A DNA stretch of 64,000 nucleotides from Candidatus Nanoarchaeia archaeon (GTDB lineage: Archaea > Nanobdellota > Nanobdellia > CSSed11-243R1). Location of the stretch: NCBI GenBank assembly GCA_028713895.1, contig JAQTNH010000001.1, positions 369,808-433,807 of the forward strand. The letters are read 5' to 3'. The position numbers and the translations under genes were made by a program. The notes beneath the pieces are model-generated. The model ran no database searches. It was given only the letters and a program-made list of their open reading frames with translations, and was not told the origin of the DNA. Positions 5,418 to 56,464 of this stretch are shown here, one piece after another. The stretch's first letter is position 1. Every line of letters begins with the position of its first letter.

Positions 5418-5954
5418 TTATTTTATTGCCGTACCCCTGATGTACGGGCAGGCTATCCTTTTTGGTAAAAAGAAGTTGAGTATATTCACCAGGACAAAAT
5501 TTAGCGGTATGACAGGATTCTTGTCTACCAGTTTGCAATACTCAACTTCGATGTTCCTGAAATTCAAATGCTCTAAGTGATTGTGCAGGTGGTGTGTGGT
5601 ATATAACGCATAATGTAAATCGCGCGGACCGCGTCTGCATCCGCTATTGAGATGGGAATTGTTTTTTAGGAGGGACCACCCCAAAAAACATGCGTTATCA
5701 GTTACTATTACTATCCTGCCATTTTTTTTAAGAACTCGTTTCATTTCACGCAAAACATTTTCAGGGTTCCTAAGATGTTCAAAAACACAGCTGGAATAGA
5801 CCTCATCAAAAAACCCGTCCTTGAATGGCAGCTTTTCTGACTCAATATCGCATTTTTTAACCTCTTCCCGTTTAGGATAGAGGTCGATAAAGTAGTTACC
5901 ATATGTCTGGTTTCCACAACCAATATTCAGTATCTTAGGTTTATCATTGTCCAT
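5418..5954 (-). CDS. Class I SAM-dependent methyltransferase (Methyltransf_11 type)
   Basis: This 178-residue protein is a minimal Rossmann methyltransferase. Motif I is ILNIGCGNQ near residue 10, the acidic ribose-binding residue is in YFIDLYP, and FKDGFFDEVYSSCVFEHL is the motif IV region typical of Methyltransf_11 (FDEVYSS..EHL). LKKNGRIVIVTDN is motif VI. It is short for the family and lacks obvious extra substrate-binding domains. The gene ends 24 nt before the radical SAM gene in the same direction, so they may form one transcript. A role in glycan or lipid methylation is inferred only from the neighbourhood. Confidence 0.85.
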   Translation of the reverse strand: MDNDKPKILNIGCGNQTYGNYFIDLYPKREEVKKCDIESEKLPFKDGFFDEVYSSCVFEHLRNPENVLREMKRVLKKNGRIVIVTDNACFLGWSLLKNNSHLNSGCRRGPRDLHYALYTTHHLHNHLEHLNFRNIEVEYCKLVDKNPVIPLNFVLVNILNFFLPKRIACPYIRGTAIK

Positions 5955-6023
5955 AAAGACGCCCCGATATATGAGAGGCTGTTAAACTTCATTTAGCAAC
6001 ATCTCCCACTGTGAATACGAGTT

Positions 6024-6046
6024 CATAACAACCTTTTGATGTTATG
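6024..6046. repeat. 7-bp inverted repeat
   Basis: CATAACA at 6024-6030 is followed by a 9-nt spacer and the exact reverse complement TGTTATG at 6040-6046. It could be an operator half-site pair or a small hairpin, and chance is also possible in A/T-rich DNA. Confidence 0.35.
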
Positions 6047-6132
6047 GACTGTATATTACAATATTGATAATTCCTTTTAAAAAGGTTACTGCCATGATTT
6101 TTTTATGATTGCGCATTCTTGTAGAGCGTAAC

Positions 6133-6141
6133 TATTTAAAT
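6133..6141 (+). promoter_or_regulatory. TATA-like box for SDR gene
   Basis: TATTTAAAT lies 23-31 nt before the ATG at 6164, the spacing expected for a leaderless archaeal transcript. Confidence 0.5.
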
Positions 6142-6163
6142 ACATTTAAAATAGAGTAGGACT

Positions 6164-7159
6164 ATGAAAGATAAAACGATACTTATAACTGGCGCGACAG
6201 GGCTTATAGGGTCGTATATCGTGGAAAAATTAGTCAAGGACAATGATGTAAGGTGCTTGGTCATAAAAAATAGCGATGTTAGCTTTCTAGAGAATGTCGG
6301 GGCAAAGGTCGTATACGGGGATATAACAGACAAGAGCACACTGGGCCCTGCACTAAAAGATGTTGATATAGTCTTTCACTTGGCGGCGGCTTTCAAAAAA
6401 GATCTGCCTGAAAAGCACACCGAAGCCGTATACTTTAAAATAAATGTAGACGGGACCAGAAACATGCTAGAAGCGGCAAAAGAGAATCATGTTAAACGAT
6501 TTGTGCATTTTGGCGCAGGAGGGGTATATGGCTTTACAGCAAGCGAACCTTCCAATGAAAATTCTCCCTATAACCCCTCTAATGCTTATGAACGATCAAA
6601 ATGTGAAGGCGAGAAGCTGGCTTTAGAATTCAATCAAGCAGGGCTGCCAGTCACAATAATCCAACCGGCTGTCGTTTATGGCCCGAGAGAGAAGGCATCG
6701 ATATTGAAATTTTTCAAGGCTGTCAAGATGGGGATTTTTCCGATAATCGGTAATGGAAAAAACAAGATGGATTTTGTTTTTGTTGAGGATATAGCAGACG
6801 GTGCAATATTAGCTGCTGAGAAAGAAAATGCGGTCGGGCAGAAATACATCATTGGCGGCGATAGAGCATATACGTTCTTGGAAATACTCCAGGTGATTGC
6901 TGATACGCTCAAGGTTCCTGTTCCAAAGATAAAGGTGCCTTATTTCCTTGCAAAGATTGGCGCAGGATTACTGGAGATTGGATGTTCACTGATTGGCATG
7001 AACCCTCCTGTAAAGGTGGCAACGATGGACTTTTTATCAAAGAACAAATTCTATGACACTTCCAAAGCCAGAAAAGAGCTCGGCTATGAACCCAAGGTTG
7101 ACTTGAAAAAGGGCATGGAAATCACGATGAAATGGTATAAAGACAATGGCCTGTTATAG
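6164..7159 (+). CDS. NAD(P)-dependent extended SDR, sugar epimerase/dehydratase family
   Basis: This 331-residue extended short-chain dehydrogenase has the N-terminal dinucleotide motif TGATGLIGSY (GxxGxxG) and VFHLAAAF after strand 4. The catalytic YxxxK pair is in YERSKCEG. In sugar-modifying SDRs these enzymes oxidise, epimerise or dehydrate nucleotide sugars. The C-terminal half (FVEDIADGAILAAE, then KKGMEITMKWY) has the substrate-binding architecture of the family. The residues present do not decide between an epimerase, a reductase and a 3-beta-HSD-like activity. It has its own TATA-like box and a 74-nt gap to the next gene, so it may be monocistronic. Confidence 0.85.
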   Translation: MKDKTILITGATGLIGSYIVEKLVKDNDVRCLVIKNSDVSFLENVGAKVVYGDITDKSTLGPALKDVDIVFHLAAAFKKDLPEKHTEAVYFKINVDGTRNMLEAAKENHVKRFVHFGAGGVYGFTASEPSNENSPYNPSNAYERSKCEGEKLALEFNQAGLPVTIIQPAVVYGPREKASILKFFKAVKMGIFPIIGNGKNKMDFVFVEDIADGAILAAEKENAVGQKYIIGGDRAYTFLEILQVIADTLKVPVPKIKVPYFLAKIGAGLLEIGCSLIGMNPPVKVATMDFLSKNKFYDTSKARKELGYEPKVDLKKGMEITMKWYKDNGLL

Positions 7160-7202
7160 TTACTTCTGTACATGGCATTATTAATTTTTTATAAAGGATA
7201 AA

Positions 7203-7212
7203 TTAATTAAAT
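7203..7212 (+). promoter_or_regulatory. TATA-like box for the 7.2-10.2 kb glycan operon
   Basis: TTAATTAAAT lies about 22-31 nt before the ATG at 7234. It would drive the GT2, epimerase and GT4 genes, which overlap each other by 4 nt. Confidence 0.5.
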
Positions 7213-7233
7213 GCTTGCCTGCTCTCATTTCTT

Positions 7234-7893
7234 ATGAAAACTATTGCTGTTATTCCTGCGTATAACGAGGAGAGGCACATTAAGAGCGTGCTGGAGCGGA
7301 CCAGGAAATATGTTGACAAAATAATAGTTGTGGATGACGGCTCTACAGACAACACTGCAAGGATAGCCAGAAAAGTGCCGGGCATTGAGATTATCCAGTC
7401 AAAAGAAAACAGGGGAAAGGCTGATGCAGTAAGCATAGGCATCAAAAAGGCGTTCCAGTACAAGCCGGACACCATCATCCTGATGGACTCAGACGGGCAG
7501 CACCTGCCTGAAGAGATTCCATTGCTTCTGGAGCACATTAAAAAAGACAATGCTGTTTTTGTTTCAGGAGAACGAGCGCATACAAAAAAGCCGCTGCTTC
7601 GTGCATTTGCAGGGATTGTTGTGGACTTCCTTGTGGGCGGGAAAGACATATTATGCGGGTTCAAGGCAATAAAAGCAGATGCGCTGAAAAAATTTGACTT
7701 GGAAGGCAGCAAGAACTACCTTATTGAAATAGCGCTCCATGATGAAGCACGAAGAAACAAAGTTAGAATTGATTATGTCCCTATCTCAACAGTGTATTCC
7801 AAGCACATCAAATCCAAAATAGACTACAAGCGGGAGTTTTTAAGCTACATTGCGTATAGATTCAACAAGCTGAAAAGGAGCATTAAACAATGA
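7234..7893 (+). CDS. GT2 glycosyltransferase, dolichyl-phosphate mannose synthase-like
   Basis: This 219-residue soluble GT-A enzyme has the compact layout of DPM1-type synthases, which charge a polyprenyl phosphate with a single sugar. Visible motifs are TIAVIPAYNEE at the start, IIVVDDGSTDNT, and ILMDSDGQH, which carries the DxD metal site. There is no C-terminal membrane domain, as in the short DPM class. It starts 27 nt after a TATA-like box and overlaps the UDP-GlcNAc 2-epimerase gene by 4 nt (ATGA), so the two are almost certainly co-translated. It may supply the lipid-linked sugar donor used by the GT39-like enzyme at 1.6-3.1 kb, but this is inference. Confidence 0.85.
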   Translation: MKTIAVIPAYNEERHIKSVLERTRKYVDKIIVVDDGSTDNTARIARKVPGIEIIQSKENRGKADAVSIGIKKAFQYKPDTIILMDSDGQHLPEEIPLLLEHIKKDNAVFVSGERAHTKKPLLRAFAGIVVDFLVGGKDILCGFKAIKADALKKFDLEGSKNYLIEIALHDEARRNKVRIDYVPISTVYSKHIKSKIDYKREFLSYIAYRFNKLKRSIKQ

Positions 7894-8984
7894 TTGCAAT
7901 CATACTCGGAACAAAAGCAGAGTTAATCAAGACAATGCCGCTGATGAAGGAGCTTAGCAGGCGCAAAATGCCGTACACTTTCATTCACACAGGGCAGCAC
8001 AGCCTTGGAGAGCTTTGCGATGATTTCAACATACGCAAGCCGGATATTGTGCTGTATGCACCTCCGAAACTTTCATCGCGATTCATGGTAAAGACGCACA
8101 AGGCGATTTTCTGGGGGCTGACGCTCATACCAAAGATACGAAAGGTTCTGAACAAGCTGCAGCCTGACTTCGTGTTCTATCATGGAGACACGCTCTCAAC
8201 AGCAGCAGCTGCGCTTGCTTCTTCAACACTTCTCGGAAAAAAGAGATGGCTTAACGGGCATCTTGAAGCAGGGCTGCGAAGCAATAACCTGTTTGAGCCG
8301 TTCCCTGAAGAAATTTCAAGAAGAATTGCTGACAGATGCTCTGATTTGCTTTTTGCGCCGTCAAAGCTGAGCGCGGAAAATGTCATGCACCTGAAAGGAA
8401 GAGTTTACATGACTGGAAACACTGTTGTGGATGGGATACAGGAATGCCTTAAAATTGCAAAGCAGCGGAAGCTTCCAGTGATAAAAGGGAAGTATGTTGC
8501 GGTAAATATTCACAGGCACGAGAACATCAAGTCCAGAGCGCGCATGACAAAGATTTACAACATAATCAAGGAAGTCGGCTTGCCAATGATATGGCCGCTG
8601 CATGATAACACAAAAAAACAGATGGCTAAATTCGGGCTGTGGGACAAATTCAACCAGCTGAACATAAAATTCTCTCCGCTCGTAACTTATGTTGAGTTCC
8701 TCTGGATGCTTAACAATGCAACATATTTGATAACAGACGGGGGCTCAATACAGGAAGAGTCGCTGGCTCTTAAGAAGCCGTGCATCCTGCTGCGGGAGAA
8801 AACAGAGCGCATCGAGGGGCTGAGTACAGGGCTTAATTTTCTTACAAAGCTTGATTTGGAATATGCAGAATGGATGATAAGCAGGATTGAGGCTGGAAAG
8901 GTAAATGCGAAAAAATTTGTCAACCCTTACGGAGACGGCAGTGCAAGCAAACAGATTGCTGACGTTCTGGAGAAAATGAAATGA
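7890..8984 (+). CDS. wecB: UDP-N-acetylglucosamine 2-epimerase family protein
   Basis: This 364-residue enzyme belongs to the non-hydrolysing UDP-GlcNAc 2-epimerases, which make UDP-ManNAc, a precursor of uronic and amino sugars in surface glycans. Family landmarks are the N-terminal GTKAELIKTMPL, FIHTGQH, GHLEAGLRS with the conserved acidic residue, NIHRHEN, and ITDGGSIQEE, which binds the UDP moiety. The last motif is slightly altered from the usual TDSGGIQEE. It is coupled by 4-nt overlaps both to the DPM-like gene upstream and to the GT4 gene downstream. No UDP-ManNAc dehydrogenase lies in the window, so the product may be used directly or oxidised by an enzyme encoded elsewhere. Confidence 0.85.
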   Translation: MIAIILGTKAELIKTMPLMKELSRRKMPYTFIHTGQHSLGELCDDFNIRKPDIVLYAPPKLSSRFMVKTHKAIFWGLTLIPKIRKVLNKLQPDFVFYHGDTLSTAAAALASSTLLGKKRWLNGHLEAGLRSNNLFEPFPEEISRRIADRCSDLLFAPSKLSAENVMHLKGRVYMTGNTVVDGIQECLKIAKQRKLPVIKGKYVAVNIHRHENIKSRARMTKIYNIIKEVGLPMIWPLHDNTKKQMAKFGLWDKFNQLNIKFSPLVTYVEFLWMLNNATYLITDGGSIQEESLALKKPCILLREKTERIEGLSTGLNFLTKLDLEYAEWMISRIEAGKVNAKKFVNPYGDGSASKQIADVLEKMK

Positions 8985-10183
8985 AAGTAATGCACATCTT
9001 TGGCGGCATAAGAACGTTCAAGATAGCAAAGTGGCAGGCAGACCAAGGGATTGATGTCCACAATGTTATCATTGAAGATGAAAAGCCGTTTGAAGCATAT
9101 TTCAAAAATACGAGCATGACACTGCACAAGAATAATTTGCTGACAAAAATTTATGAGAGAATAAAAGGAAAAAAGCTCCTGTTCTTCAGGATGCACATGC
9201 TCCTTTACCCGTTCTACCTGCGGCTGATAAGCAAGGCAATCAGGCAGCAAAATCCTGATATAGTGCATGCATACAGGCACACCGGCGCGCTCCTTGCAAT
9301 AATCTCAAAAAAACTCCATAATTTCAAATCAAAGATAGTTTTTGATTACCAGGACCCATGGAGAGGGGAAGATATGCGGAACAAATCAATATTCCACAAG
9401 TTCATTGTTGACACGTTCTACAAATTTGAAAAGTTCATAATAAACAATTCAGACCTTGTCATAACGCAGGGAGAAGAGCAGACTGAAATGCTGAAAAAGC
9501 GGCATAACCTTCAGGACAGCAAATTCAGCTACACAATTAATACGGCGGACACAAATGTTTTCAAAGTTTACACTGAAGGCAGGGAAGAGCTGCGCAAGAG
9601 TTACGGGATAGATGACACAGCAATACTTTATCTCGGCTCAATTGTGGACTCCCATGGAGTCGGGATGCTTCCAAAAGCTGCAAAAGAAGTGCTGGAAGAG
9701 TTCCCTAAAACGAAATTCATAATGCTGGGAGTAATCCGCGACAAGGCTTACTGGGAGTCGCTGAAGAAAGAGATAAAGTCGTACGGGATATGGGATAATT
9801 TTGTAGAGATATATCCGGACAAGAAAGGAGACATACCAAAATATGTTTCCATGTGCGATATCGGGCTCATACTCCACAAGAAAGGCTCTGCAATAAGCGA
9901 AGTTGCAATCCCTTCAAAGCTGTTCGAGTACATGAGCTGCGGGCTGGCTATTGTAACAAGCAACCTGAAGCACATAACCAGATTTGTGCTGCCTGAAAAT
10001 GCCGGTGTTGCATTTGAGCCCAACAGCACAGACAGCCTTGTAGAGACTCTCAAGGCCCTGATTAAAAATCCCGAGCGCATGATGATGCTTGGGAAAAATG
10101 CGCGCAAAGCCGCAGAAACCAAGTATAATTGGGACGCAGACATGGAAAGACTTTTAAAAGCGTATGAGTCTCTTATAAAATAG
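8981..10183 (+). CDS. GT4-family glycosyltransferase
   Basis: This 400-residue GT-B enzyme has a C-terminal nucleotide-sugar domain typical of GT4, including ILYLGSIVDSHG at the domain start. AIPSKLFEYMSCGLAIV holds the E-x7-E type acidic region that binds the donor. The N-terminal acceptor domain begins MKVMHIFGG. Such retaining enzymes add one sugar from an NDP donor at the cytoplasmic face. It overlaps the 2-epimerase gene by 4 nt, suggesting that it may use UDP-ManNAc or a derivative. That specificity is a guess from gene order. Confidence 0.85.
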   Translation: MKVMHIFGGIRTFKIAKWQADQGIDVHNVIIEDEKPFEAYFKNTSMTLHKNNLLTKIYERIKGKKLLFFRMHMLLYPFYLRLISKAIRQQNPDIVHAYRHTGALLAIISKKLHNFKSKIVFDYQDPWRGEDMRNKSIFHKFIVDTFYKFEKFIINNSDLVITQGEEQTEMLKKRHNLQDSKFSYTINTADTNVFKVYTEGREELRKSYGIDDTAILYLGSIVDSHGVGMLPKAAKEVLEEFPKTKFIMLGVIRDKAYWESLKKEIKSYGIWDNFVEIYPDKKGDIPKYVSMCDIGLILHKKGSAISEVAIPSKLFEYMSCGLAIVTSNLKHITRFVLPENAGVAFEPNSTDSLVETLKALIKNPERMMMLGKNARKAAETKYNWDADMERLLKAYESLIK

Positions 10184-13666: not shown

Positions 13667-14374
13667 TTAAAGATGTCCCCAGGATTTAAGATGCGCCTCA
13701 GCGTCTTGGATATCCTTGATGCTGTTAACTGAAATCCATGCTTCATCCTTGGCAAGTTCGTATGCAGCAATTTTTCCATCCTTGGCTATTTTTGCAAACA
13801 ACAAGTCCTCGATAGAGCCTGTGTCGGGTATCAAATCAACAATTTTTTTGTTAAAAATGTAAATGCCTATGCTCACAAGGGTATCCCTGAGCCTTTTGCC
13901 GTATCTGAAACCTGAAACTGTGCAGTCGTCCTCGACATCCACAACGCTGAACCTGCAGTGGAACGGGGCCAAAGCCATTGTAAGAAGAGGGTTATTTTTC
14001 TGGTGTATTCTGTACATATCCCCGAGATTCAGGTTTGTCAATTCATCGCAGTTCATCCCGAGAAAGTCTTCGTCCTTTACATACCTGGAAATTGCAAGCT
14101 TGAATCCCTGCGCTGTGCCGCCTTCAGTAGTGTGCACGCTGATTTGCACGTTAAGGCCGAAATTATTGTTCTCTTTCAGGTAATCAATTATCTTCTCTTT
14201 TTTGAAGGCAACTCCGATAACCACATTTTTGATTCCCTGGAGTTTGAGCCAGTGGATTACCCAGTAAAGCATTGGTTTGCCTGCAATCGGGGCAAGCGCC
14301 TTGGGTATGTCGTTAGTAAGAGGCTTAAGCCGTGAGCCTTCCCCCCCAGCTATGATTACTGCTGTTTGTACCAT
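13667..14374 (-). CDS. Sugar-phosphate nucleotidyltransferase
   Basis: This 235-residue protein is a short NTP_transferase family enzyme that joins a sugar-1-phosphate to an NTP. The signature GGEGSRLKPLTNDIPKALAPI gives the nucleotide-binding loop and the lysine of the PKAL segment. MNCDELTNLN supplies the metal-binding acidic residue, and DEAWISVNSIKDIQDAE closes the fold. There is no C-terminal left-handed beta-helix. It resembles the mannose-1-phosphate guanylyltransferase / HddC group. It has its own TATA-like box and sits 4 nt upstream of the GMD-like SDR gene, so GDP-mannose-type chemistry is a fair inference. Confidence 0.85.
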   Translation of the reverse strand: MVQTAVIIAGGEGSRLKPLTNDIPKALAPIAGKPMLYWVIHWLKLQGIKNVVIGVAFKKEKIIDYLKENNNFGLNVQISVHTTEGGTAQGFKLAISRYVKDEDFLGMNCDELTNLNLGDMYRIHQKNNPLLTMALAPFHCRFSVVDVEDDCTVSGFRYGKRLRDTLVSIGIYIFNKKIVDLIPDTGSIEDLLFAKIAKDGKIAAYELAKDEAWISVNSIKDIQDAEAHLKSWGHL

Positions 14375-14396
14375 ACCAATGAAAAAGAAAAATACG

Positions 14397-14406
14397 TTTT
14401 ATATAA
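14397..14406 (-). promoter_or_regulatory. TATA-like box for nucleotidyltransferase-SDR pair
   Basis: On the minus strand, TTATATAAAA lies about 23-32 nt before the ATG at 14374, in the 46-nt gap after the RfbH gene. It suggests that these two genes can be transcribed separately from the RfbF-RfbH operon. Confidence 0.5.
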
Positions 14407-14420
14407 TTTGCTAAAAGCGT

Positions 14421-15725
14421 TTAATGTTCCCTGATGAATGCGCCTATCTTTGCGATTACGTAGTCTATGTCTTTTTCAGATATCGCAGGGCACACGCCTA
14501 TCCAAAAAGAATCGTTCATGATTCTGTTTGAATTAGTAAAATCCCCAACAACACGGTATTTGATGTTATTGTCTACAAAATAAGGCTGCTTGGTTATGTT
14601 GCCCCCAAACAATAAACGGGTTCCTATCCTGTTTTTGTCAAGATACTCCAGCAAGTCCCTGCGCGTGAACCTGCACTTGTCGGTCAAGGTCATCAAGAAC
14701 CCGAACCATGAGGGCTCAGAATCTTTTGTCGGCTTAGGCAGCATGAAATAATCACTGTATTTTTTCATTTTTTGACTAAGCATTTCAAAATTTCTTTTTC
14801 TCGCTTTCACAAAATCATCCAGCTTGTCCATCTGTGCAAGCCCTATTGCCACATTCAAATCCGTATTTTTGAGATTATATCCCATCTCAGAATATGTGTA
14901 CTTGTGGTCATAGCCATAAGGCAGATTTCCCAACTGCCAGCTGAACCGCTTCCCGCAGGCATTGTCCTGCCCTGTTTTGCAGAAACAGTCCCTGCCCCAG
15001 TCCTTCAATGACTTTAAAATTCTGGCTAGAAGAGCATTGTCTGTAACTATTGCTCCGCCCTCGCCCATTGTTATCTGGTGCGCAGGGTAAAAACTGAATG
15101 TGGCAATGTCCCCGAAGGTGCCGACAGGTTTTCCCTTATACTTTGCGCCCAAGGCATCGCATGCATCCTCTATCAGCCAAAGATTATGTTTTTGGCACGC
15201 CTTTTTGATTTCTTCCAGATTGAACGGGTTCCCGAGAGTGTGCGCAAGGAACACTGCTTTTGTTTTTGGGGATATCGCTTTTTTGAACTGCTCAATATTT
15301 ATGTTGTATGTTTCCAGGTCCACGTCGCAAAAAACAGGCACGCAACCATACAGAATGATGGGATTTATTGTAGTCGGGAATCCTGCTGCAACAGTTATCA
15401 CTTCGTCGCCTGGCTTGATTCTCCGCTCTTTCAATTTTGCAGAGGTTAAGGCTGCAAATGCCAAAAGATTTGCAGAGGAGCCTGAATTGACAACAAGGGT
15501 GTGCTTTGTGCCCAAGAACGCATTCAACTTCTTTTCAAATGCTTCAGTCACCCTGCCCTCGGTCCACCAGCCGTCAAGGGCTGCGTCTACAATTGATATG
15601 ACTTCTTTTTCATCAAATTTTTTGCCGGATACTGGCACGCCTTCTGGTTTCTTGGACAGATAACTCTTGTAATACTCCTTAACCTTTTCAAAGATTTCTT
15701 TTTTGAGTTTATCTTTATGGTCCAT
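14421..15725 (-). CDS. rfbH: CDP-4-keto-6-deoxyglucose 3-dehydrase (E1), RfbH
   Basis: This 434-residue protein has the DegT/DnrJ/StrS fold but is a PMP- and iron-sulfur-dependent dehydrase. The usual PLP lysine is replaced by His in FYPAHQITMGEGG, the hallmark of the E1/ColD branch. The [2Fe-2S] pattern of E1 is complete: the Cys in EDACDALG, then exactly 57 residues to the first Cys of DCFCKTGQDNACG, which itself gives C-X1-C-X7-C. E1 removes the C3 hydroxyl of CDP-4-keto-6-deoxyglucose and normally needs a ferredoxin-reductase-type partner (E3), which is not in the window. It ends the RfbF-RfbG-SDR-ThDP-RfbH run, with an 11-nt gap after the ThDP gene. Confidence 0.93.
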   Translation of the reverse strand: MDHKDKLKKEIFEKVKEYYKSYLSKKPEGVPVSGKKFDEKEVISIVDAALDGWWTEGRVTEAFEKKLNAFLGTKHTLVVNSGSSANLLAFAALTSAKLKERRIKPGDEVITVAAGFPTTINPIILYGCVPVFCDVDLETYNINIEQFKKAISPKTKAVFLAHTLGNPFNLEEIKKACQKHNLWLIEDACDALGAKYKGKPVGTFGDIATFSFYPAHQITMGEGGAIVTDNALLARILKSLKDWGRDCFCKTGQDNACGKRFSWQLGNLPYGYDHKYTYSEMGYNLKNTDLNVAIGLAQMDKLDDFVKARKRNFEMLSQKMKKYSDYFMLPKPTKDSEPSWFGFLMTLTDKCRFTRRDLLEYLDKNRIGTRLLFGGNITKQPYFVDNNIKYRVVGDFTNSNRIMNDSFWIGVCPAISEKDIDYVIAKIGAFIREH

Positions 15726-15736
15726 GTTTGAGCCTT

Positions 15737-17491
15737 CTAGCTTATTTTTTCCAGCATCCCTGAGATTTCTTTCTCTTCTTTTGCATCCAAATCCGGGCTT
15801 AACCTGTTTATGGGCCTGTCAAACCTGAGTTTCGGCGCCAGATAGGTTGTGTAATCAATGTTAATCTCCAAAAGAACAGGCTTGCCATGCTCGCTGAAAA
15901 CTTTGTTTAATGTTTCGTCTATGTCGCGGCTTTTCTCATTTAGTGAATATGACTTTATGCCATAAGCTTCTGCAATTTTCCTGGAGTCTGAAGCAAAATA
16001 ACCTGAGTCCGGATCTGTTGCTGCATACCTGCTTTCGAAATATAAATCCTGGAACTGTTTTATCATGCCCAGGCTGTTGTTGTTAAGAACAATTATGATT
16101 ACAGGAATATTACACCTTGAAACAGTATTGAGCTCCTGTACATTCATCTGGAACCCCCCGTCTCCGCATATAACAACGCATCGCTTTCCTGCGACCCTGT
16201 TAATCCCTATGGCTGCTGGCAATGCAAAACCCATCGGCGCCATGCCGCCGCTATTGATGAATCTCTGGTTGTTCCTTATTTCGATAACCTGCGCAGCCAA
16301 CATCTGATTTTGCCCGACATCAACGCATACAACATCATCCCTGTCAAGCTTGTCAGACACCTTTTTCAGCATCTGGTAGTGCCAATCCTTTTTGTTTTCC
16401 CGTTTTAATTCTGTCAATGGGCCATACTTTTTCTTTAGGAAACCAAGCAGCCCAACAAGCTTTTCCCGTTTTACGCTAATCTTTCCATCAGAAAGGCTGT
16501 TGTTCATTTTTTCCAAAAAAATAGAAACGTCTGACTGTATTTTTACGGTGTTTTTAACCCTGCTGGATTCCATCTCATCCTCATCGAGGTCCACCCATAT
16601 TATGTTCTTGTTTGAAAAAGGCTCGAGCATATTCCCTGTCTGTCTTGAGTCAAGTCTTGAACCCAAAACCAGCAATGTATCACAGGCAGCCAGTAAAAGA
16701 TTCCCGTACCTGTTGCCGTATGACCCTATGAACCCGGCGAACAGAGGATGGTTATTTGGAAAACTGTCCTTGCCCATGAGAGAGACTGCCACTGGAACAT
16801 CAAGACGTTCTGCAAAAGCTATCAGCTTGTTTTTAACTTGTGCAGCGCTGCAACCACCGCCAGCAAGAATCAAAGGCAGTTTTGAATTTTTGAGTTTGGA
16901 TATCACTTCGGTTATTTTGCCCTGGCTAACATTTGATACAACCTTCGGCGTTTCGTAACCAAAATCAGGATTTTTTATTTCTGCACGCTGTATGTCCATG
17001 GGGATATCCAGCAAGACAGGGCCTTTGCGCCCTGAAGTGGCAATCTTGACAGCTTTTTTTAATTCGCTGACAAGCAGTTCCGGCTTGTCTACAAGCGCAC
17101 AATACTTTGTTATGGGCTTAACAATGCTGACTATGTCAGTTTCCTGAAATCCGCGCTGCCTTGTCTTAAGATTGTACTTGAAATCATAAGTGTTCACCTG
17201 CCCGGTTATAAAAAGAACCGGTGTGGAATCAAAAAATGAGTCTGCAATGCCTGTTATCAAATTTGTGGCTCCAGGCCCGCTTGTGGCAACAGCCACCTGC
17301 AGCTCACCTGTCAGCTTTGCCGCCGCACTTGCCTCAAAAGAAGCCGCCTGTTCATGGTAACACGTAACAAAGTTAGTCTTGTTTTTATATATAGAATCAA
17401 AAATGTGGGTAATAGCGCCGCCAGTATAGCCGAATATGCATTTGACGCCAATTTTTTCCAAGTATTTTACAATATAATCGCTTGCTTTCAT
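15737..17491 (-). CDS. ThDP-dependent enzyme of acetolactate synthase family, YerE-like by context
   Basis: This 584-residue protein has all three domains of the acetohydroxyacid synthase superfamily. The N-terminal domain has GYTGGAITHIFD and the catalytic Glu in YHEQAASFEA. The middle domain has LILAGGGCSAAQVK. The C-terminal ThDP site reads GDGGFQMNVQEL and ends about 25 residues later in NNNSLG. RQRGFQETDIVS is also typical. In Yersinia, YerE adds a pyruvate-derived two-carbon unit to CDP-3,6-dideoxy-4-ketoglucose. Here the gene lies between RfbH and an SDR in an operon making exactly that substrate. It overlaps the SDR gene by 4 nt. Plain acetolactate synthase is the alternative, but no small subunit or other ilv gene is nearby. 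Confidence 0.78.
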   Translation of the reverse strand: MKASDYIVKYLEKIGVKCIFGYTGGAITHIFDSIYKNKTNFVTCYHEQAASFEASAAAKLTGELQVAVATSGPGATNLITGIADSFFDSTPVLFITGQVNTYDFKYNLKTRQRGFQETDIVSIVKPITKYCALVDKPELLVSELKKAVKIATSGRKGPVLLDIPMDIQRAEIKNPDFGYETPKVVSNVSQGKITEVISKLKNSKLPLILAGGGCSAAQVKNKLIAFAERLDVPVAVSLMGKDSFPNNHPLFAGFIGSYGNRYGNLLLAACDTLLVLGSRLDSRQTGNMLEPFSNKNIIWVDLDEDEMESSRVKNTVKIQSDVSIFLEKMNNSLSDGKISVKREKLVGLLGFLKKKYGPLTELKRENKKDWHYQMLKKVSDKLDRDDVVCVDVGQNQMLAAQVIEIRNNQRFINSGGMAPMGFALPAAIGINRVAGKRCVVICGDGGFQMNVQELNTVSRCNIPVIIIVLNNNSLGMIKQFQDLYFESRYAATDPDSGYFASDSRKIAEAYGIKSYSLNEKSRDIDETLNKVFSEHGKPVLLEINIDYTTYLAPKLRFDRPINRLSPDLDAKEEKEISGMLEKIS

Positions 17492-18444
17492 GTAACCCCA
17501 ACCTTTTCGTATGCATGCAAATTCTTTTCAAACCAGTTCATTGTCTTTTCCAATCCCTCTTTCAAGCTGTGTTTTGGTTTCCAGTCAAATGCTTTCCGGG
17601 TTTTTGCAATGTCCGCGACCCAGACTGTGTTGTCATAGCTTCTCTTGAATTCCTCTTTTGAAATAATTTTTGAAGTGGATTGTTTGAGTTCGATGCAGGT
17701 TTTTACCACATCAGCAACACTGTGCTGTTTGCCAGTCCCTAAATTGTATGCTTCTCCAGGCTTAATAAGCCCGGGGTTGTCAATAATCTTTTTGAAAAGC
17801 GCTGCAACATCCTCTATGAATATGAAGTCCCTTACTGAGCCAGGGTTTCCTATGGTGATGTCTTCTTTTTTTATACAGTTTATTGAAACAGAAGGTATCA
17901 GCCGCTGTTTTTCCTCAAAATAGCCGTACGGAGAAAAAGGACGCAATGTGATTACAGGCTTGTTGTTCTTTTTTGCGTAATAAGAGGCATATAATGTTGC
18001 CGCAACCTTGGAAACGCCGTAAGCGGTTGTCGGCTCCAGGACATCGCTTTCTTTCATGGGCTTGCTTTTTGTCCCGTACTCAGAGGAAGAGCCTGTGTTT
18101 ATGAAGCATTTGTAATCTATGCCTGAACATGCATTCAACAGATTAAAAAAACCGTCGAAGTTTGTTTTGAATATCGTCTTCTCATCGTCCTGTGCTGGAA
18201 AGCCCCCGTATGTCGCGCAGTGGACTATGTGGGTGGGGTTTATTGTTTTAACAACTTTGCAAAGCGCATTAAAATCAGACAAATCAACATAATGCTTCTT
18301 GATATTTTTGACGCCGTCCAAACGCCAGGTGTTGGAATTTTTCCGGAGAATTATATTAACTTCTGCGTCAATATCCAAGGTTAGAAGCCTAACCAAGTTA
18401 GAGCCTATGAACCCTGTCGCGCCCGTGACAAGTATGCGCTTCAT
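17488..18444 (-). CDS. Extended SDR, NDP-sugar 4-reductase candidate (YerF/abequose-synthase-like role)
   Basis: This 318-residue extended SDR has TGATGFIGSNLV for cofactor binding, IVHCATYGG, and YGVSKVA with the YxxxK pair. STGSSSEYGT-like residues (TGSSSEYG) give the catalytic Ser/Thr. The overall pattern matches the CDP-paratose/abequose synthase and epimerase group. Its gene overlaps both the RfbG-like gene upstream and the ThDP gene downstream by 4 nt, so it is translated with them. In a yersiniose-type pathway the last step is a reduction carried out by such an SDR, and I infer that role. A CDP-3,6-dideoxyhexose 4-reductase acting before, or instead of, carbon branching is also possible. 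Confidence 0.72.
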   Translation of the reverse strand: MKRILVTGATGFIGSNLVRLLTLDIDAEVNIILRKNSNTWRLDGVKNIKKHYVDLSDFNALCKVVKTINPTHIVHCATYGGFPAQDDEKTIFKTNFDGFFNLLNACSGIDYKCFINTGSSSEYGTKSKPMKESDVLEPTTAYGVSKVAATLYASYYAKKNNKPVITLRPFSPYGYFEEKQRLIPSVSINCIKKEDITIGNPGSVRDFIFIEDVAALFKKIIDNPGLIKPGEAYNLGTGKQHSVADVVKTCIELKQSTSKIISKEEFKRSYDNTVWVADIAKTRKAFDWKPKHSLKEGLEKTMNWFEKNLHAYEKVGVT

Positions 18445-19409
18445 TTCTGTATCACTTTTTTATACCAATCAAGAGTCTCTTTTAAGCCGGATTCAAATGA
18501 ATGAATCGGTTCCCAGTTTATGTGCTTCTTTATTTTTTCATATGAAAGGTATTGCTCTGGAATCTCCCCTTTTGCGATATTGAGAATTTTGAAGTTAATC
18601 TTTTGTTTGGCAACCTCCCCAATCTTGTTAACAAGTTCAATCACTGAGAATCTTTTTCCACTGCCGAAATTGTATGCATGCCCTTTTGTTTTTTGTATAT
18701 TTTCAACGAGCATCATAAGCCCGTTAACAACATCCTTGACAAAAAGGTATTCCCTGATTTGTTTTCCATCGGAACGTATCTCCAGAGTCTCATTTTTAAT
18801 CATTGTTGTTATGGCGCCAGGGACTATCCTGCTGAGATTCAGGTCGCCTGGGCCGTAAACGTTCGCAAACCGTGTTATGACAATCGGCAAATCATAAATT
18901 TTGAAATAAGTATTTGCAATCAGGTCCTCGCAGGATTTTGACACGCTGTAAGGGCATTCCCCTTTCAAAGGCATGTCCTCAGTATAAGGCAGTATCTTGC
19001 TTTCCCCGTAAGCTTTGTCGCTTGAAACAATAACAAGGGCTTTGACATTTTTATTTGCCCGCACAGTTTCAAGCACATTGATTGAACCGTCTATGTTTGT
19101 CTTAAAAACCTCAACAGGATTAACTATCGCTTTTCCAACTAAGGGCTGCGCTGCAAGATGAAAAACAATTTCTATCCTGTTCTTAGTTACAGCTTCGAAT
19201 ACCTTATCGCTGTCCTGAACGTTCACATTGAGAAAAACTGATTTTTTGTTCAAGCCCTCTTTGAAATAGTAAAGGTCCGGATTGTTGTTTATGTCCACAA
19301 CAAAAACGTTTGCGCCAGAGCCAACAAGGGCTTCCACCAGATGCCCCCCAATAAACCCAGAACCGCCAGTGACTAAAACATTTTTGTTTTTCCAAAATGT
19401 TTTGTTCAT
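18441..19409 (-). CDS. rfbG: CDP-glucose 4,6-dehydratase-like SDR (RfbG)
   Basis: This 322-residue extended SDR matches the CDP-glucose 4,6-dehydratase pattern: KNVLVTGGSGFIGGHL, then FHLAAQPLVGKAIVNP (the FHLAAQPLV signature), VIVSSDKAYGE, and YSVSKSCEDL with YxxxK. The enzyme oxidises C4 and removes water across C5-C6, making CDP-4-keto-6-deoxyglucose, the substrate of RfbH. The gene overlaps rfbF by 4 nt upstream and the next SDR by 4 nt downstream, so the order matches the biochemical order. It is somewhat shorter than the ~355 residues of enterobacterial RfbG, and the DKCYEN motif is DKAYGE here. A UDP-type SDR is therefore a minor alternative. Confidence 0.78.
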   Translation of the reverse strand: MNKTFWKNKNVLVTGGSGFIGGHLVEALVGSGANVFVVDINNNPDLYYFKEGLNKKSVFLNVNVQDSDKVFEAVTKNRIEIVFHLAAQPLVGKAIVNPVEVFKTNIDGSINVLETVRANKNVKALVIVSSDKAYGESKILPYTEDMPLKGECPYSVSKSCEDLIANTYFKIYDLPIVITRFANVYGPGDLNLSRIVPGAITTMIKNETLEIRSDGKQIREYLFVKDVVNGLMMLVENIQKTKGHAYNFGSGKRFSVIELVNKIGEVAKQKINFKILNIAKGEIPEQYLSYEKIKKHINWEPIHSFESGLKETLDWYKKVIQK

Positions 19410-20206
19410 TTTTTACAAGTCCTCCAAACCAGCCAGGGCGCATTGCCGGAATCCAGCATCTTGTTTAATGTTTCAACATGCTTGTATGTGTCCATTGCAA
19501 ACCAGAATCCGTTGTGTGAAAATGCAGCGAGTTCTTTGTCTCTTGCCAAATTTTTAAGAGGCTCCTGCTCAAAAACACAGGAACTGTCTTTGTCAAGATA
19601 ATCAAATATTTTCCTGTTGCAAACAAAGAAACCGCCATTTATTGTCCCGTCAAGCCTGGGCTTTTCCTGGAATGATTTTACCAGACCGTTTTCCAGGTTT
19701 AGCACCCCAAAATATGAATAGGGCTGGACTGCGATAAGCGTTGCTATCCTGCCTTTTGACTTGTGGAATTTGTACAGTTCGTTTATGTTAACATCGGAAA
19801 GGCCGTCACCATAAGTTAAAAAGAAGTCTTCATCATTTCCTATGTACTCCTTTATTTGGGCGATTCTGGAACCTGTCATGTTTTCTTCGCCAGTATCAAC
19901 AAATGTTATCTTCCAGTCATCCATGCTTTTGGGGTCGCAGTGTGTTGTCACCATTTTTTCTTTTCCAGAAGACAGGTCCAGGGTAAAGTTGCTGTTTAAT
20001 TCGCGGTAATTCAAAAAGTAGTCTTTTATCATTTCCCCTTTGTAGCCAAGGCATAAAATAAAATCCTTAACGCCGTAATGGGAATAAATTTTCATTATAT
20101 GCCATAAGATTGGCATTTTGTCCAGCCTAACTAGAGGTTTGGGCTTGAATTCAGTCTCTTCCTTCATTCGGGTTCCTTTACCGCCACAAAGAATTACGCA
20201 TTTCAT
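19406..20206 (-). CDS. rfbF: Glucose-1-phosphate cytidylyltransferase (RfbF)
   Basis: This 266-residue nucleotidyltransferase makes CDP-glucose from CTP and glucose-1-phosphate, the entry point to CDP-linked 3,6-dideoxy sugars. It starts MKCVILCGGKGTRMKEE and continues with KPKPLVRL, the RfbF form of the signature. GYKGEMIKDYF and TYGDGLSDVN provide the second conserved block and the metal site. DEDFFLTYGDG and NGGFFVCNRKIFDYL are also characteristic. Length fits the ~257-residue family norm. A TATA-like box lies 23-30 nt upstream of ATG 20206, making this the first gene of the five-gene operon. It overlaps the RfbG gene by 4 nt. Confidence 0.92.
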   Translation of the reverse strand: MKCVILCGGKGTRMKEETEFKPKPLVRLDKMPILWHIMKIYSHYGVKDFILCLGYKGEMIKDYFLNYRELNSNFTLDLSSGKEKMVTTHCDPKSMDDWKITFVDTGEENMTGSRIAQIKEYIGNDEDFFLTYGDGLSDVNINELYKFHKSKGRIATLIAVQPYSYFGVLNLENGLVKSFQEKPRLDGTINGGFFVCNRKIFDYLDKDSSCVFEQEPLKNLARDKELAAFSHNGFWFAMDTYKHVETLNKMLDSGNAPWLVWRTCKK

Positions 20207-20281: not shown

Positions 20282-21448
20282 CTATTTTTTGCCTGAATTT
20301 TTGCTTTTTAAAAAGGAGCTTTTGCCTTCGCGGTCGTCATTAGAGTGCAATTGGCCTTTTAGATAACCGTCTATCTGCCTGGCGTATGCAGAATGCAGCT
20401 TAGAATACAGAATAGCCAATATCTTTCTGAAAATAGATGATTTTTCCATAGTTTTGAAGACTAAAACTGCCAAATAAATCCAAAAAGGCATCTTCAGCCG
20501 GCGCTCGCAGCCGTAAACTTTATTTTTCAATGTATCGTAATCGGATTTACCAAGCATTTGAGACAGCAACACCAACTGCACCAAACTTTTAACATAAACG
20601 TAGTTTCCACGAATATTAAGCCAGCGATAAAATGATTCGCGAAGCTTTGAATCCAGATTAAGACCGGATAAAGTATCAGCTCTGCGGTCTACAAAAAGTA
20701 TAAACTCATCTCCGGGGAGAAGTACATTATCCTTTTTGTGTTCTATGCTCTGGCCGTGCAGTATCGGAGGCTCCTTGTTGACGAGGATGCTGCCTTCAAA
20801 GTTTGAAAGCCCGTAAAAGAAAAGAGCCAGGTGATACCAGCCGTATCTTTTGCCTTCCAAAGCCCTAAACGAGTGTTTGAGCAGGCCATTACTAAAAAAG
20901 TAGCATGGAAAGAAACCAAGAATGGGGATATCCTGGTTGGATTTAATAAACCGGCTTGAACTGTTTATTACCGAAATAAAAATATCAATGAATTCCTTGC
21001 TTGAATACTCCTGTTTTGGAAATTTCCGGATTATCATGTCCAAATCTTTTTGTTTGGCCATTGCGCCGGTGATGCCAACCATAAAGGAGCTTTTTTTGTC
21101 CAGCAGCCTGACAAATTTTTGTATGTTCTCCGGAACTACAGTGTCATCGTCTCCAATGCCCCAGCAGTACCTGCCACGCGCCATTTTTAGGCTTGATAAC
21201 AAATTAGAATCAAACCCCAGATTCTTAGGATTCTTCCTGATGTGGATAAATTTGTATTTTTTTTCATAACGTTTTAGCATCTCAAAAGTGCCGTCAGTTG
21301 AGCCATTATCTGAAATGCATATCTCAAGCTTTCCTGCCGCCAGATTCTCAGACTCAACAAGCCCGTGCAAAGTTTGTTCCAAAGCATTTTTACGCTGGAA
21401 AGTCGGGATACATATTGAAAGGACTGGAACGTTCTTATTAACAGCCAT
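20282..21448 (-). CDS. GT2-family glycosyltransferase
   Basis: This 388-residue enzyme has an N-terminal GT-A domain: LSICIPTFQRKNALEQTL, ICISDNGSTDGT, and WGIGDDDTVVPENI with an Asp-rich metal-binding site. The C-terminal 190 residues are not membrane-like apart from a short hydrophobic stretch (FWIYLAVLVF), and end in a basic tail. ATG 21448 was preferred over the TTG one codon earlier. It shares one base with the flippase stop codon (TGATG), so the two genes are coupled. It probably adds one sugar of the repeating unit carried by the upstream flippase. Specificity is unknown. Confidence 0.85.
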   Translation of the reverse strand: MAVNKNVPVLSICIPTFQRKNALEQTLHGLVESENLAAGKLEICISDNGSTDGTFEMLKRYEKKYKFIHIRKNPKNLGFDSNLLSSLKMARGRYCWGIGDDDTVVPENIQKFVRLLDKKSSFMVGITGAMAKQKDLDMIIRKFPKQEYSSKEFIDIFISVINSSSRFIKSNQDIPILGFFPCYFFSNGLLKHSFRALEGKRYGWYHLALFFYGLSNFEGSILVNKEPPILHGQSIEHKKDNVLLPGDEFILFVDRRADTLSGLNLDSKLRESFYRWLNIRGNYVYVKSLVQLVLLSQMLGKSDYDTLKNKVYGCERRLKMPFWIYLAVLVFKTMEKSSIFRKILAILYSKLHSAYARQIDGYLKGQLHSNDDREGKSSFLKSKNSGKK

Positions 21449-22962
21449 CAAGCACCCCTGGTTTTGTGATTGCGCTTAAACAGTCCCCTGACTTTTAATA
21501 AAAGAGAACTTAACAGTTCCTTGTCTGTGTCGGTTAAAACAAATTTATACGAGAGTGGAAGGTAGAATATTACAAACAGCACCCCTGATACTGCAACCCA
21601 AAGCAAGTTTTGCGTTAAAACTGTTCTGTAAACTATGTAAAGCGGCGTAAAAATCAGCAAAACAAGCGCCATTGACTTTATCATGCTCCACGAGAAAGGC
21701 ATTACCCTTGTAATCATGAACAACCTGGCAACAGCAAGTATTGAGATGCTTATCCATGAGATTGCGCTTGCTATTGCAGAGCCGTTCATCCCATAAACAG
21801 GTATTAACAAAATGTTTAGCGCTACATTGCCGAGCGCACAAACAGCAGTTATGACAAAGATGTATTTCGTCTTCTTGTACAGCTGAAGCATTGTGATTGT
21901 CGGCAAGAATACGGAATACACAAACAGCCCCAGGGACAATATGATAAATGCCGTACTTGCTGCAGTATATATCTCCCCAAACAGGAGTCTAAGAATCATT
22001 GTTGCAGCGGTTATAAAAAACAGCAGCACAGGCAGGTTTGCGAGCGTTATCCAGTAAACCACTGTTTTGAACAGCCTGGATATCTCTTCCCCGTTTTTTT
22101 TGGCCAGCAGTTCTGAAAGGACAGGCAACAATAATGCAATCAGAAGGGACGGGACAACATACAGCAAGCTTGCGGTGGGAACTGCAGCGTTATACAAACC
22201 CACGATTTGTTCAGGCAAAAAATATGCCAGCAGGATTGTATCTGTCCACTGAATAACGAAAAAGAAAAGTGTAACAAAAAGCAGCGGCACTGAAAACGCC
22301 AAAATTTCTGCGTGCGCCAGGACAGGTTTTACTTTCTGGGTTATGGAAAACAATTTTTTGTGAATCTTGAAAACCAAAAACAGGACAGCCAGAATGTTTG
22401 CCACCAAGAATGCGATGGCAATACTCTTAAGCCCGTATCCCAAGACTATCAAAATTATTGTGAGAACCAAATTTCCCAGGGGAAATATTATGTTATTGGC
22501 CATAACAGGGTACACTATATTTTTGAATCCCTTAGAAATGCTCATGGAAATCTGCAAAACAGCCAGTATTGGAATCGCTATCGCAAATATCATCAGCGTG
22601 GAAGCCATTCCGGGATTCTGGAACAAATCCGCAAGATTCTTTGAAAAGATTAACAGCAGGACAAATAAAATAATCCCGAAGACAGATGCGTACTTTGAAA
22701 CAAAAAGTATCAGCCCCTTGGTTTTTGATTTGTCCTTATTATACAAAGGAATATATCTTTCCAGCGCGCTGGGAGTCCCAAAAACAGCAATTGCAGCGAG
22801 TATGGACACAACAGCAAGACAAACTGAAAAGATTCCGTATGCTTCAGGCCCAAGCCCTTTTGCCAGGATAACCCTGTGGGTGTATGCAAACAGCTTAGAA
22901 AGTACAGTCCCAATAAGCACGATTAATGCGCCTTTTGCGACTACTTTCAAGTGTTCGGACAT
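21448..22962 (-). CDS. Wzx/MATE-like oligosaccharide flippase (second copy type)
   Basis: This 504-residue membrane protein has about 14 predicted hydrophobic helices and the MOP-superfamily polysaccharide flippase pattern, starting with GALIVLIGTVLSKLFAY and a conserved loop GLGPEAYGIFSV. It should move lipid-linked oligosaccharide across the membrane. It is distinct from, and about 90 residues longer than, the flippase at 320-1552, with the extra length in additional C-terminal helices. It is the first gene of a short minus-strand unit with the GT2 gene. Its divergent neighbour, the RHH-nucleotidyltransferase, begins 90 nt away. Confidence 0.87.
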   Translation of the reverse strand: MSEHLKVVAKGALIVLIGTVLSKLFAYTHRVILAKGLGPEAYGIFSVCLAVVSILAAIAVFGTPSALERYIPLYNKDKSKTKGLILFVSKYASVFGIILFVLLLIFSKNLADLFQNPGMASTLMIFAIAIPILAVLQISMSISKGFKNIVYPVMANNIIFPLGNLVLTIILIVLGYGLKSIAIAFLVANILAVLFLVFKIHKKLFSITQKVKPVLAHAEILAFSVPLLFVTLFFFVIQWTDTILLAYFLPEQIVGLYNAAVPTASLLYVVPSLLIALLLPVLSELLAKKNGEEISRLFKTVVYWITLANLPVLLFFITAATMILRLLFGEIYTAASTAFIILSLGLFVYSVFLPTITMLQLYKKTKYIFVITAVCALGNVALNILLIPVYGMNGSAIASAISWISISILAVARLFMITRVMPFSWSMIKSMALVLLIFTPLYIVYRTVLTQNLLWVAVSGVLFVIFYLPLSYKFVLTDTDKELLSSLLLKVRGLFKRNHKTRGA

Positions 22963-55825: not shown

Positions 55826-55924
55826 AGTATTGTTAGGAGATGGTTGGTTTATATTTATTTTGGTGGCTATTTCACTGGACAACAGTAAGTCAATGTTTAA
55901 ATTAAACAGAAGTTTTACAATAGC
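55826..55924. promoter_or_regulatory. Divergent promoter region, subtilase / 179-aa protein
   Basis: In this 99-nt gap TTTATATTTA at about 55848-55857 (read on the minus strand) lies 23-32 nt before ATG 55825. On the plus strand GTTTAAATTA at 55895-55904 lies 21-30 nt before ATG 55925. Unlike the other divergent gaps, the two promoters here are well separated. Confidence 0.5.
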
Positions 55925-56464
55925 ATGGCTGAGGGGTTCAATACGGTGGAATGTTCTATGCACGGCATTCCAGGGCATATCTCTGTAATTGTAAGTGAAA
56001 CCAATCCATCGCACATACAGCACATTAAAGATAATCTCCTTAAGGACAACCCGATGGTCAGCGCAGTCTATTTATCAGCAAAAAACTGGGAAAGCTGCAA
56101 AGAACTAAGCGAGTGGGCAAAGAAGAACAACCTGAAGACAGGACTGAGCGCAGACGAGATGGGGCTGGAGGATGTAAAGGCTGCGCTGGAAAGCGGATTT
56201 GTTGAATTTGTGCGGCTTAACATCAAAAAACACCCTGAAACAAAAAAGAAAGCAGGACTAATAAGAAGCTCTGGAATAAAACACGAGTTTGTTTTCGGGC
56301 TTGAAGAAAATGACTCAAGCAAGGCAGAGGAAGCCTATCTTTTTGTTTCGCCGTGCGATTCTTTTGTCGTGGAAGCACATCCAAAGCTGAAAGACGAGAC
56401 TAAGAACCTTCTTATGGGGCTGGCTTCAAAATACAAGAGCATGGGGCTAAGATTTCTAAAATAG
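55925..56464 (+). CDS. Uncharacterised 179-residue protein, possible TIM-barrel fragment
   Basis: I do not recognise the family with certainty. The 179 residues alternate hydrophobic strands and amphipathic helices (AVYLSAKNWESCKELSEWAKKNN, KTGLSADEMGLEDVKAALESG, FVRLNIKKHPETKKKAG, EFVFGLEEND, SFVVEAHP). This looks like half a TIM barrel and loosely recalls the later strands of radical SAM activases, but there is no CxxxCxxC cluster. The few cysteines present (VECSMHG, WESCKE, VSPCDS) do not form one. The coding quality is good, with a TATA-like box 21-30 nt upstream and clean codon use. The ATG overlaps no real gene once the subtilase start is set at 55825. Confidence 0.65.
   Translation: MAEGFNTVECSMHGIPGHISVIVSETNPSHIQHIKDNLLKDNPMVSAVYLSAKNWESCKELSEWAKKNNLKTGLSADEMGLEDVKAALESGFVEFVRLNIKKHPETKKKAGLIRSSGIKHEFVFGLEENDSSKAEEAYLFVSPCDSFVVEAHPKLKDETKNLLMGLASKYKSMGLRFLK

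Follow-up and report, generated by a model that had tools for sequence, protein, structure and literature searches.

A putative archaeal operon for a CDP-linked branched dideoxy octose, with a carboligase that differs among related loci

A five-gene operon with a YerE-like enzyme

We analyzed a 64,000-nt stretch of DNA from a Candidatus Nanoarchaeia archaeon (assembly GCA_028713895.1, contig JAQTNH010000001.1, positions 369,808 to 433,807; hereafter the window, whose positions are used below), which carries an operon of five minus-strand genes between positions 20206 and 14421. In the order of the open reading frame (ORF) list, these genes encode RfbF, a glucose-1-phosphate cytidylyltransferase that makes CDP-glucose (19406–20206; 266 residues); an RfbG-like short-chain dehydrogenase/reductase (SDR) of a short type, presumed to be a CDP-glucose 4,6-dehydratase (18441–19409; 322 residues); a second SDR, here termed SDR-A, for which we propose the YerF role of branch-ketone reductase from its gene context (17488–18444; 318 residues); a YerE-like thiamine diphosphate (ThDP) enzyme, proposed to act as a carboligase on CDP-3,6-dideoxy-4-keto-glucose (15737–17491; 584 residues); and RfbH, or E1, a 3-dehydrase with pyridoxamine phosphate and a [2Fe-2S] cluster that gives the 3,6-dideoxy-4-keto sugar (14421–15725; 434 residues). 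The initial annotation had described a one-direction operon with its first four genes joined by 4-nt overlaps, and both the ORF coordinates and the junction sequences bear this out: three ATGA overlaps join the first four genes, and 11 nt separate the end of the ThDP gene from the start of rfbH. The window is archaeal in origin, with cca_archaeal, topA_arch, diphthine synthase and type II methionyl aminopeptidase each scoring above cutoff, and ARAGORN finds no tRNA in it. The host genome (G000; genomes are numbered with G and loci with L) comprises 1.07 Mb in 13 contigs and is 89.5% complete; its small size points to a DPANN-type archaeon. Since the same five components, RfbF, RfbG, SDR, ThDP enzyme and RfbH, co-occur in five further loci (L037, L067, L070, L071 and L076), the operon is more than a chance arrangement.

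Two of the sugar enzymes pass curated NCBIfam models: RfbF scores 323.6 bits against TIGR02623 (cutoff 300.25), and RfbH scores 679.2 against PRK15407 (cutoff 423). The best PDB match of RfbH is 3bcx (548 bits), a structure of E1 from 3,6-dideoxyhexose synthesis, followed by 3bb8 (544 bits). RfbH was initially noted to keep the histidine-for-lysine change and the exact cysteine spacing of E1, and we find both, with H216 lying within SFYPAHQIT and the cluster cysteines arranged as C189-X57-C247-X1-C249-X7-C257.

The ThDP protein contains the Pfam TPP_enzyme N, M and C domains above cutoff, a catalytic glutamate (E47, in HEQ), a GDG motif at residues 443–445 and an NN pair at 470–471, and it shares its operon with CDP-keto-sugar genes, of which RfbF and RfbH score above cutoff. 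A sequence search of the PDB gives 5ahk at 380 bits, with a plant acetohydroxyacid synthase (AHAS) next at 275; the protein is about 39% identical to 5ahk and 32% identical to both IlvB and IlvI. We take 5ahk to be the published YerE of Pseudomonas protegens (PpYerE), an identity backed by its Foldseek title (AHAS Pf5 from P. protegens) and by the valine found at residue 479 counted from the first methionine. Val479 is named for PpYerE in a review that also reports structures of the YerE-like enzymes PpYerE and JanthE and describes YerE as moving activated acetaldehyde onto CDP-3,6-dideoxy-4-keto-glucose (PMC12247030).

We placed the ThDP protein in a maximum-likelihood tree of 32 rows, using 22 of the 33 rows that matched it in genomes of the host's class; the 11 rows left out are at most 32% identical, except for a 166-residue fragment from G349 at 42%. 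The window protein clusters with 5ahk and a Bdellovibrionales protein (L003) at 99/91, inside a 15-row YerE clade (100/100) that excludes E. coli IlvB, IlvI and Gcl as well as plant AHAS. A loop insertion ending in RQxG(F/V/P)QE occurs in all 15 members of this clade and in none of the 17 other rows. In a Foldseek search with the predicted structure (pLDDT 85), ranks 1–7 are all 5ahk or JanthE chains (JanthE at ranks 2 and 4–7), and the first AHAS appears at rank 8. The phylogeny against YerE, acetolactate synthase and glyoxylate carboligase that had been proposed as a check thus sets the window protein beside 5ahk and away from both AHAS and Gcl.

The genomic background agrees with this placement. 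The 89.5% complete window genome gives no matches to IlvH and none to IlvC, and at 1e-5 it encodes nothing else related to the ThDP protein. Among 11 genomes with such operons or YerE–RfbH pairs none has an IlvC over cutoff (four have short matches below it). The initial annotation would have been undone by a ThDP protein lying within IlvB and a small subunit encoded elsewhere; instead we observe a separate clade and no IlvH. We accordingly reject acetolactate synthase on the tree, the loop insertion and the lack of IlvH and IlvC, with the fold search in agreement though weakly discriminating, and glyoxylate carboligase because Gcl is without the loop and sits elsewhere in the tree. On phylogeny and loop, then, the ThDP protein is classed as YerE-like and not IlvB. 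Four Firmicutes loci considered as YerE candidates (L004–L006 and L008; 32–35% identity) were likewise rejected, as they group with Gcl. Among the best 30 of 1638 plasmid records matching the ThDP protein, none is named YerE; these records are labelled acetolactate synthase (IlvG, IlvB, IlvI or similar) or are unlabelled. With IlvC over cutoff in none of the 11 genomes, the automatic label "acetolactate synthase" is likely wrong for genes of this kind.

The ThDP protein finds matches in 32 of the 378 class genomes, the window genome included, and the YerE clade takes in 13 class proteins from 12 genomes among the 22 rows placed. RfbH at 45% identity or more lies in the fetched stretch for five of the 13 (window, L007, L037, L048 and L049), and the full five-gene set occurs at two YerE-type loci, the window and L037. 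At L037, a 998-residue frame (7137–10133, minus strand) joins a class I aminotransferase to the YerE-like enzyme with no stop between them, and the aminotransferase may provide the carboligase with its 2-oxo acid donor on site. Locus L044 has two YerE-clade genes; in the product of one (102–2654), the enzyme is preceded by an N-terminal region that resembles a cupin by eye. The same locus holds an SDR fused to a ColD/RfbH-like enzyme (13766–15898). In the Bdellovibrionales locus L003 (5914–15500), a YerE-like gene lies beside rfbG and rfbF, with ColD-like and GMD-like genes further on and no close RfbH.

ThDP enzymes of three superfamilies beside one SDR family

We searched for SDR-A in 371 genomes of the host's phylum and 378 of its class (overlapping sets), and found ten loci: the window and nine in further class genomes, with SDRs 41–51% identical to that of the window. 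Each of the ten clusters includes a ThDP enzyme, adjacent or fused in eight cases and 3.3 kb away in two. The type of ThDP enzyme differs among them: three loci encode a YerE-like enzyme (window, L007 and L037, with L039 being the same contig as L007 and counted once), six a split transketolase (L068–L071 by Pfam, L076 and L077 by blastp), and one a pyruvate-dehydrogenase-type E1 alpha and beta pair (L067). At L076, SDR-A and the transketolase N subunit share one 610-residue open frame (7770–9602, plus strand), and in an SDR tree no row lies nearer to the window SDR than this fused one (93/94). At L077, SDR-A (7899–8837) lies beside a split transketolase and has histidine in the catalytic tyrosine column; a second transketolase follows about 7 kb on.

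The window SDR carries the motifs SSSEYG and YGVSK (structure model pLDDT 91.7). Counting back from YG by eye, SDR-A has Ser-Ser where RfbG has Asp-Lys. In the SDR tree, the SDRs of L104 and L105, which have no ThDP match, form a clade (100/99) with that of L106, whose transketolase lies 4.2 kb from RfbH; this clade stands beside the SDR-A clade (92/95). The SDR of L099, 27% identical to the window SDR, falls inside the SDR-A clade on a very long branch and was not counted as SDR-A. Searches with the window SDR against plasmids (2 records) and phages (best 10 of 56 records) gave at most 28% identity among the matches listed.

As a control, we turn to RfbH, which is found at 1e-70 in 21 of the 378 class genomes. 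All six of the loci with SDR-A have a ThDP gene no more than 4 kb from rfbH, as do three of the 15 without it (Fisher p 0.0015, ignoring relatedness), the three being L048 and L049 (YerE-like) and L099 (transketolase). Within 5 kb the counts become 6/6 and 5/15 (p 0.012, likewise ignoring relatedness), with the addition of L106 (transketolase, 4.2 kb) and L108 (an E1-like ORF, 4.9 kb). The 5-kb figure is the more cautious, because the ThDP gene of one SDR-A locus, L037, lies 3.6 kb from rfbH; both values are optimistic, as the rows are related. Contig ends make the absence of a ThDP gene unsure at L109, which stops 0.2 kb after rfbH, and at L100, which begins 3.8 kb before it.

In an RfbH tree, the type of ThDP enzyme varies within three groups of close relatives. 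The window, with its YerE-like enzyme, falls in a four-row clade (100/99) with L099, L070 and L071, all of which have split transketolases. Its nearest row is L099 (93/89), which resembles the window in rfbF (77% identity), rfbH (71%) and glycosyltransferase (57%), but has a long RfbG and the divergent SDR noted above. L037 (YerE-like) pairs with L076 (transketolase) at 97/94, and these two loci are alike in rfbF (72%), rfbG (67%), glycosyltransferase (61%), rfbH (70%) and SDR (43%); the ThDP part alone belongs to another superfamily. This is the cleanest swap pair. L067 (E1) and L068 (transketolase) are sisters in both the RfbH tree (100/100) and the SDR tree (99/98), with L068 showing no rfbF or rfbG. 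The RfbH tree requires at least three changes of ThDP superfamily.

The exchange of ThDP superfamilies among related operons lends comparative support to the proposed action of the ThDP enzyme on the sugar. Three of the nine ThDP superfamilies are known to use ketone acceptors, and they are the same three that we find here (PMC12247030). With somewhat better than even confidence, we read these loci as a modular branched-octose pathway of the class, in which the carbon–carbon step on a CDP-4-keto-3,6-dideoxy sugar would be filled interchangeably by a YerE-type decarboxylase, a split transketolase or a pyruvate-dehydrogenase-type E1, a dedicated SDR would complete the branch, and the archaeal RfbH would work without a classical E3. 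In its transketolase form, this pathway would attach a hydroxyacetyl unit and yield an octose that is not known to have been described.

Predicted pathway and competing explanations

We put at roughly 80% the probability that the product of the window operon is a C-branched 3,6-dideoxy octose activated by CDP and probably destined for a surface glycan. RfbF would make CDP-glucose, which the RfbG-like SDR would convert to CDP-4-keto-6-deoxyglucose, and RfbH would then take off the 3-hydroxyl to give CDP-4-keto-3,6-dideoxyglucose. With ThDP as cofactor, the YerE-like enzyme would decarboxylate a 2-oxo acid, pyruvate or another, and the acyl carbanion so formed would add to C4, turning its ketone into a tertiary alcohol that bears an acetyl branch. 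The SDR would then reduce this acetyl to hydroxyethyl. Use of the finished sugar would fall to the glycosyltransferase and the flippase-like protein encoded next to the operon. We infer the substrates, the order of steps, the reaction of the SDR and the use in a surface glycan from these assignments. The family assignments of RfbF, RfbH and the YerE-like enzyme have good support; the reaction of the SDR is the weakest link of the pathway, and pyruvate is assumed as donor. Overall, our data are well explained by a real archaeal variant of a known bacterial pathway with an unexpectedly exchangeable carboligase, a reading that is well supported.

Several observations weigh against this reading. 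The initial family calls stood for RfbF and RfbH but not fully for RfbG: TIGR02622 is the best model of the RfbG-like protein, at 198.5 bits, below its cutoff of 278.45. The same operon slot in L070 and L099 is filled by proteins that pass this model at 478 and 471 bits, such that two RfbG types, about 33% identical, share one slot, and among those scanned only the long type passes. The short type also lies beside rfbF in L037, L076 and L103. It retains S-D-K (SSDKAYG) and Y-X3-K (YSVSK), residues common to the model-passing RfbG of L070 and L099, and we take Ser/Thr-Asp-Lys to be the dehydratase signature; the short type is presumably a divergent dehydratase. The window genome yielded no canonical E3-type NAD(P)H reductase to partner RfbH: PF00175, which we assume to be the reductase domain expected in E3, has no match in this 89.5% complete genome, nor in eight of the 11 genomes searched, the window genome included.

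Other points bear on the ThDP enzyme and its company. By sequence, JanthE (252 bits) ranks below plant, yeast and E. coli AHAS chains, and the Foldseek TM-scores overlap (5ahk 0.84–0.85, JanthE 0.89–0.90, AHAS 0.80–0.87). The other eight of the 13 YerE-clade stretches, some of them short, have no RfbF match and at most weak SDR or aminotransferase matches, and their enzymes may serve other keto sugars. RfbF, RfbG and RfbH are all present in the fetched stretch of only six of the ten SDR-A loci (window, L037, L067, L070, L071 and L076), with L007 and L068 showing RfbH only, L069 RfbF and RfbG only, and L077 none of the three. A fold search with the SDR returns generic sugar SDRs with no discrimination, and an Ensifer plasmid SDR, 28% identical, adjoins RfbG- and RfbH-like genes with no ThDP match. 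Finally, the split transketolase pair occurs in 441 archaeal assemblies and is the usual archaeal form (PMC11237513).

Since split transketolases are this common in archaea, the swap argument rests on the place of these genes in the operon. Ordinary metabolic transketolases and an ordinary E1 pair could have come to lie in the sister operons by chance, and they would then say nothing about branching. A transketolase N part is fused to another sugar enzyme in Thaumarchaeota (PMC11237513), L067 encodes an E1 beta that passes a model for pyruvate dehydrogenase, and four genomes (G106, G357, G356 and G335) have no Transketolase_N match beyond the operon copy, which could thus serve the whole cell. 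We nevertheless consider chance placement improbable: in L070 and L071 the transketolase genes are placed between those for the SDR and RfbH, and their ends overlap; in L099 they adjoin RfbH, and in L076 they share a frame with the SDR. Further Transketolase_N matches occur beyond the SDR locus in G090, G303 and G429 (G469 has one outside the operon) and are absent from the three YerE-type genomes searched (G000, G321 and G225). If the window ThDP protein were instead an acetolactate synthase housed in a sugar operon, the remaining genes would make a plain 3,6-dideoxyhexose of the paratose or abequose type, with the SDR as 4-ketoreductase. Acetolactate synthase is indeed the best NCBIfam model of the protein (TIGR00118), and the class contains an RfbF-RfbG-SDR-RfbH cluster, L104, with no ThDP match within the 17.4 kb fetched. 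The protein scores 465.4 against that model, however, below the cutoff of 538.35; its tree position, its loop and, less sharply, its fold point to YerE-type enzymes, its genome offers neither IlvH nor IlvC, and the SDRs of L104, L105 and L106 keep to their own clade beside SDR-A, all of which makes this account very unlikely.

Two further alternatives accept a YerE-like carboligase on the sugar and differ in what it adds or in what follows. The donor could be a 2-oxo acid longer than pyruvate, or a functionalized one, giving a branch of more than two carbons as in erwiniose or caryophyllose. YerE-like enzymes such as ErwE do not use pyruvate (PMC12247030). At L037 the fused aminotransferase is a possible 2-oxo acid source. 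The window enzyme, however, groups with the P. protegens enzyme, in a tree that held no long-donor enzyme, and the transketolase and E1 of the sister operons belong to enzymes that transfer two-carbon units by known chemistry; a longer branch seems unlikely. It is also conceivable that SDR-A acts before branching, or as an epimerase, in which case the final sugar would keep its acetyl branch or have another configuration. SDR-A has only generic sugar SDR matches in sequence and fold, and the branch reduction of yersiniose has itself been called uncharacterized (PMC4753412). Set against this are the association of SDR-A with ThDP enzymes of three superfamilies, its fusion to a transketolase subunit in L076, and the Ser-Ser that replaces the Asp-Lys of RfbG in the by-eye count. 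We regard such a role as possible though doubtful, and prefer SDR-A as the branch reductase.

Related systems and neighboring genes

The chemistry proposed here is already known from bacteria. The yersiniose A pathway of Gram-negative O-antigens (RfbF-RfbG-RfbH-YerE plus a branch reductase) shares RfbF, RfbH and a YerE-type ThDP enzyme with the window operon, and the reactions on the CDP-keto sugar are likely the same. The window differs in its archaeal host, its short divergent RfbG and its genome, in which no E3 reductase domain was found; in addition, its SDR is defined by context, and its ThDP slot varies among related operons. P. protegens 5ahk, taken here to be YerE, is the best sequence and fold match of the window enzyme and shares its loop insertion, but the two are separated by long branches, and the window enzyme has Ile477 where 5ahk has Val479. 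JanthE (8rph, 8rpi and 8rpj), for all its high fold ranks, is only 28% identical.

The other two carboligase types also have bacterial counterparts, and sections 2.2 and 2.3 of one review cover branching by E1-type and transketolase enzymes (PMC12247030). Split transketolases proposed for miharamycin and amipurimycin resemble those of L068–L071, L076, L077 and L099 in being two-gene transketolases beside keto-sugar genes. The 13 split transketolases of one survey all come from Streptomycetes, with none characterized (PMC12247030, section 2.3), whereas those described here belong to CDP-dideoxy-sugar operons within a class of archaea. Likewise, the E1 alpha/beta branching enzymes of aldgamycin, avilamycin and paulomycin resemble L067 in forming a two-subunit E1-like pair beside keto-sugar genes; their sugars belong to specialized natural products (PMC12247030, section 2.2), whereas L067 is an RfbF-RfbG-RfbH cluster.

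Among the matches listed, our literature search gave no report of archaeal branched or dideoxy sugars of this chemistry, and the available excerpts of PMC11237513 and PMC12409901 describe no such operons. If the proposed pathway is real, C-branched octoses of bacterial O-antigens and antibiotics would also occur in archaeal glycans, small archaea would have acquired and reshuffled a branching pathway, and the natural swaps would provide carboligases of three superfamilies for apparently the same acceptor. Two questions become testable with these loci: the acceptance of keto sugars by split transketolases, still pending according to a 2025 review (PMC12247030, section 2.3), and the identity of the branch-ketone reductase, whose step was described as uncharacterized for yersiniose in 2016 (PMC4753412).

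The genes flanking the operon lie on the same minus strand. A family 2 glycosyltransferase (PF00535; 20282–21451) is encoded 75 bp upstream of rfbF, and its L099 counterpart likewise adjoins rfbF. Its gene has a 4-nt overlap with that of a flippase-like membrane protein, named by eye (21448–22962); ORFs 29–35% identical to the latter lie near the ThDP gene in L037, L038 and L045. Downstream of rfbH are a sugar-1-phosphate nucleotidyltransferase (PF00483; 13667–14374), with a 38% identical gene near the L099 operon, and a GDP-mannose 4,6-dehydratase-like SDR (PF16363; 12469–13779), whose best model, gmd, is under cutoff and whose true start is probably inside the listed ORF. Elsewhere in the window, a 2110-residue open frame spans positions 49691–56023 (minus strand).

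Among the related loci, L103 encodes an RfbH that is extended at its N-terminus by about 290 residues (5736–7916, minus strand). Near the operons of L076 (169–3934) and L007 (16–2937) are large membrane proteins that by eye resemble AglB-type oligosaccharyltransferases, each followed by a GlcNAc-1-P transferase-like ORF; such neighbors would fit an N-glycan.

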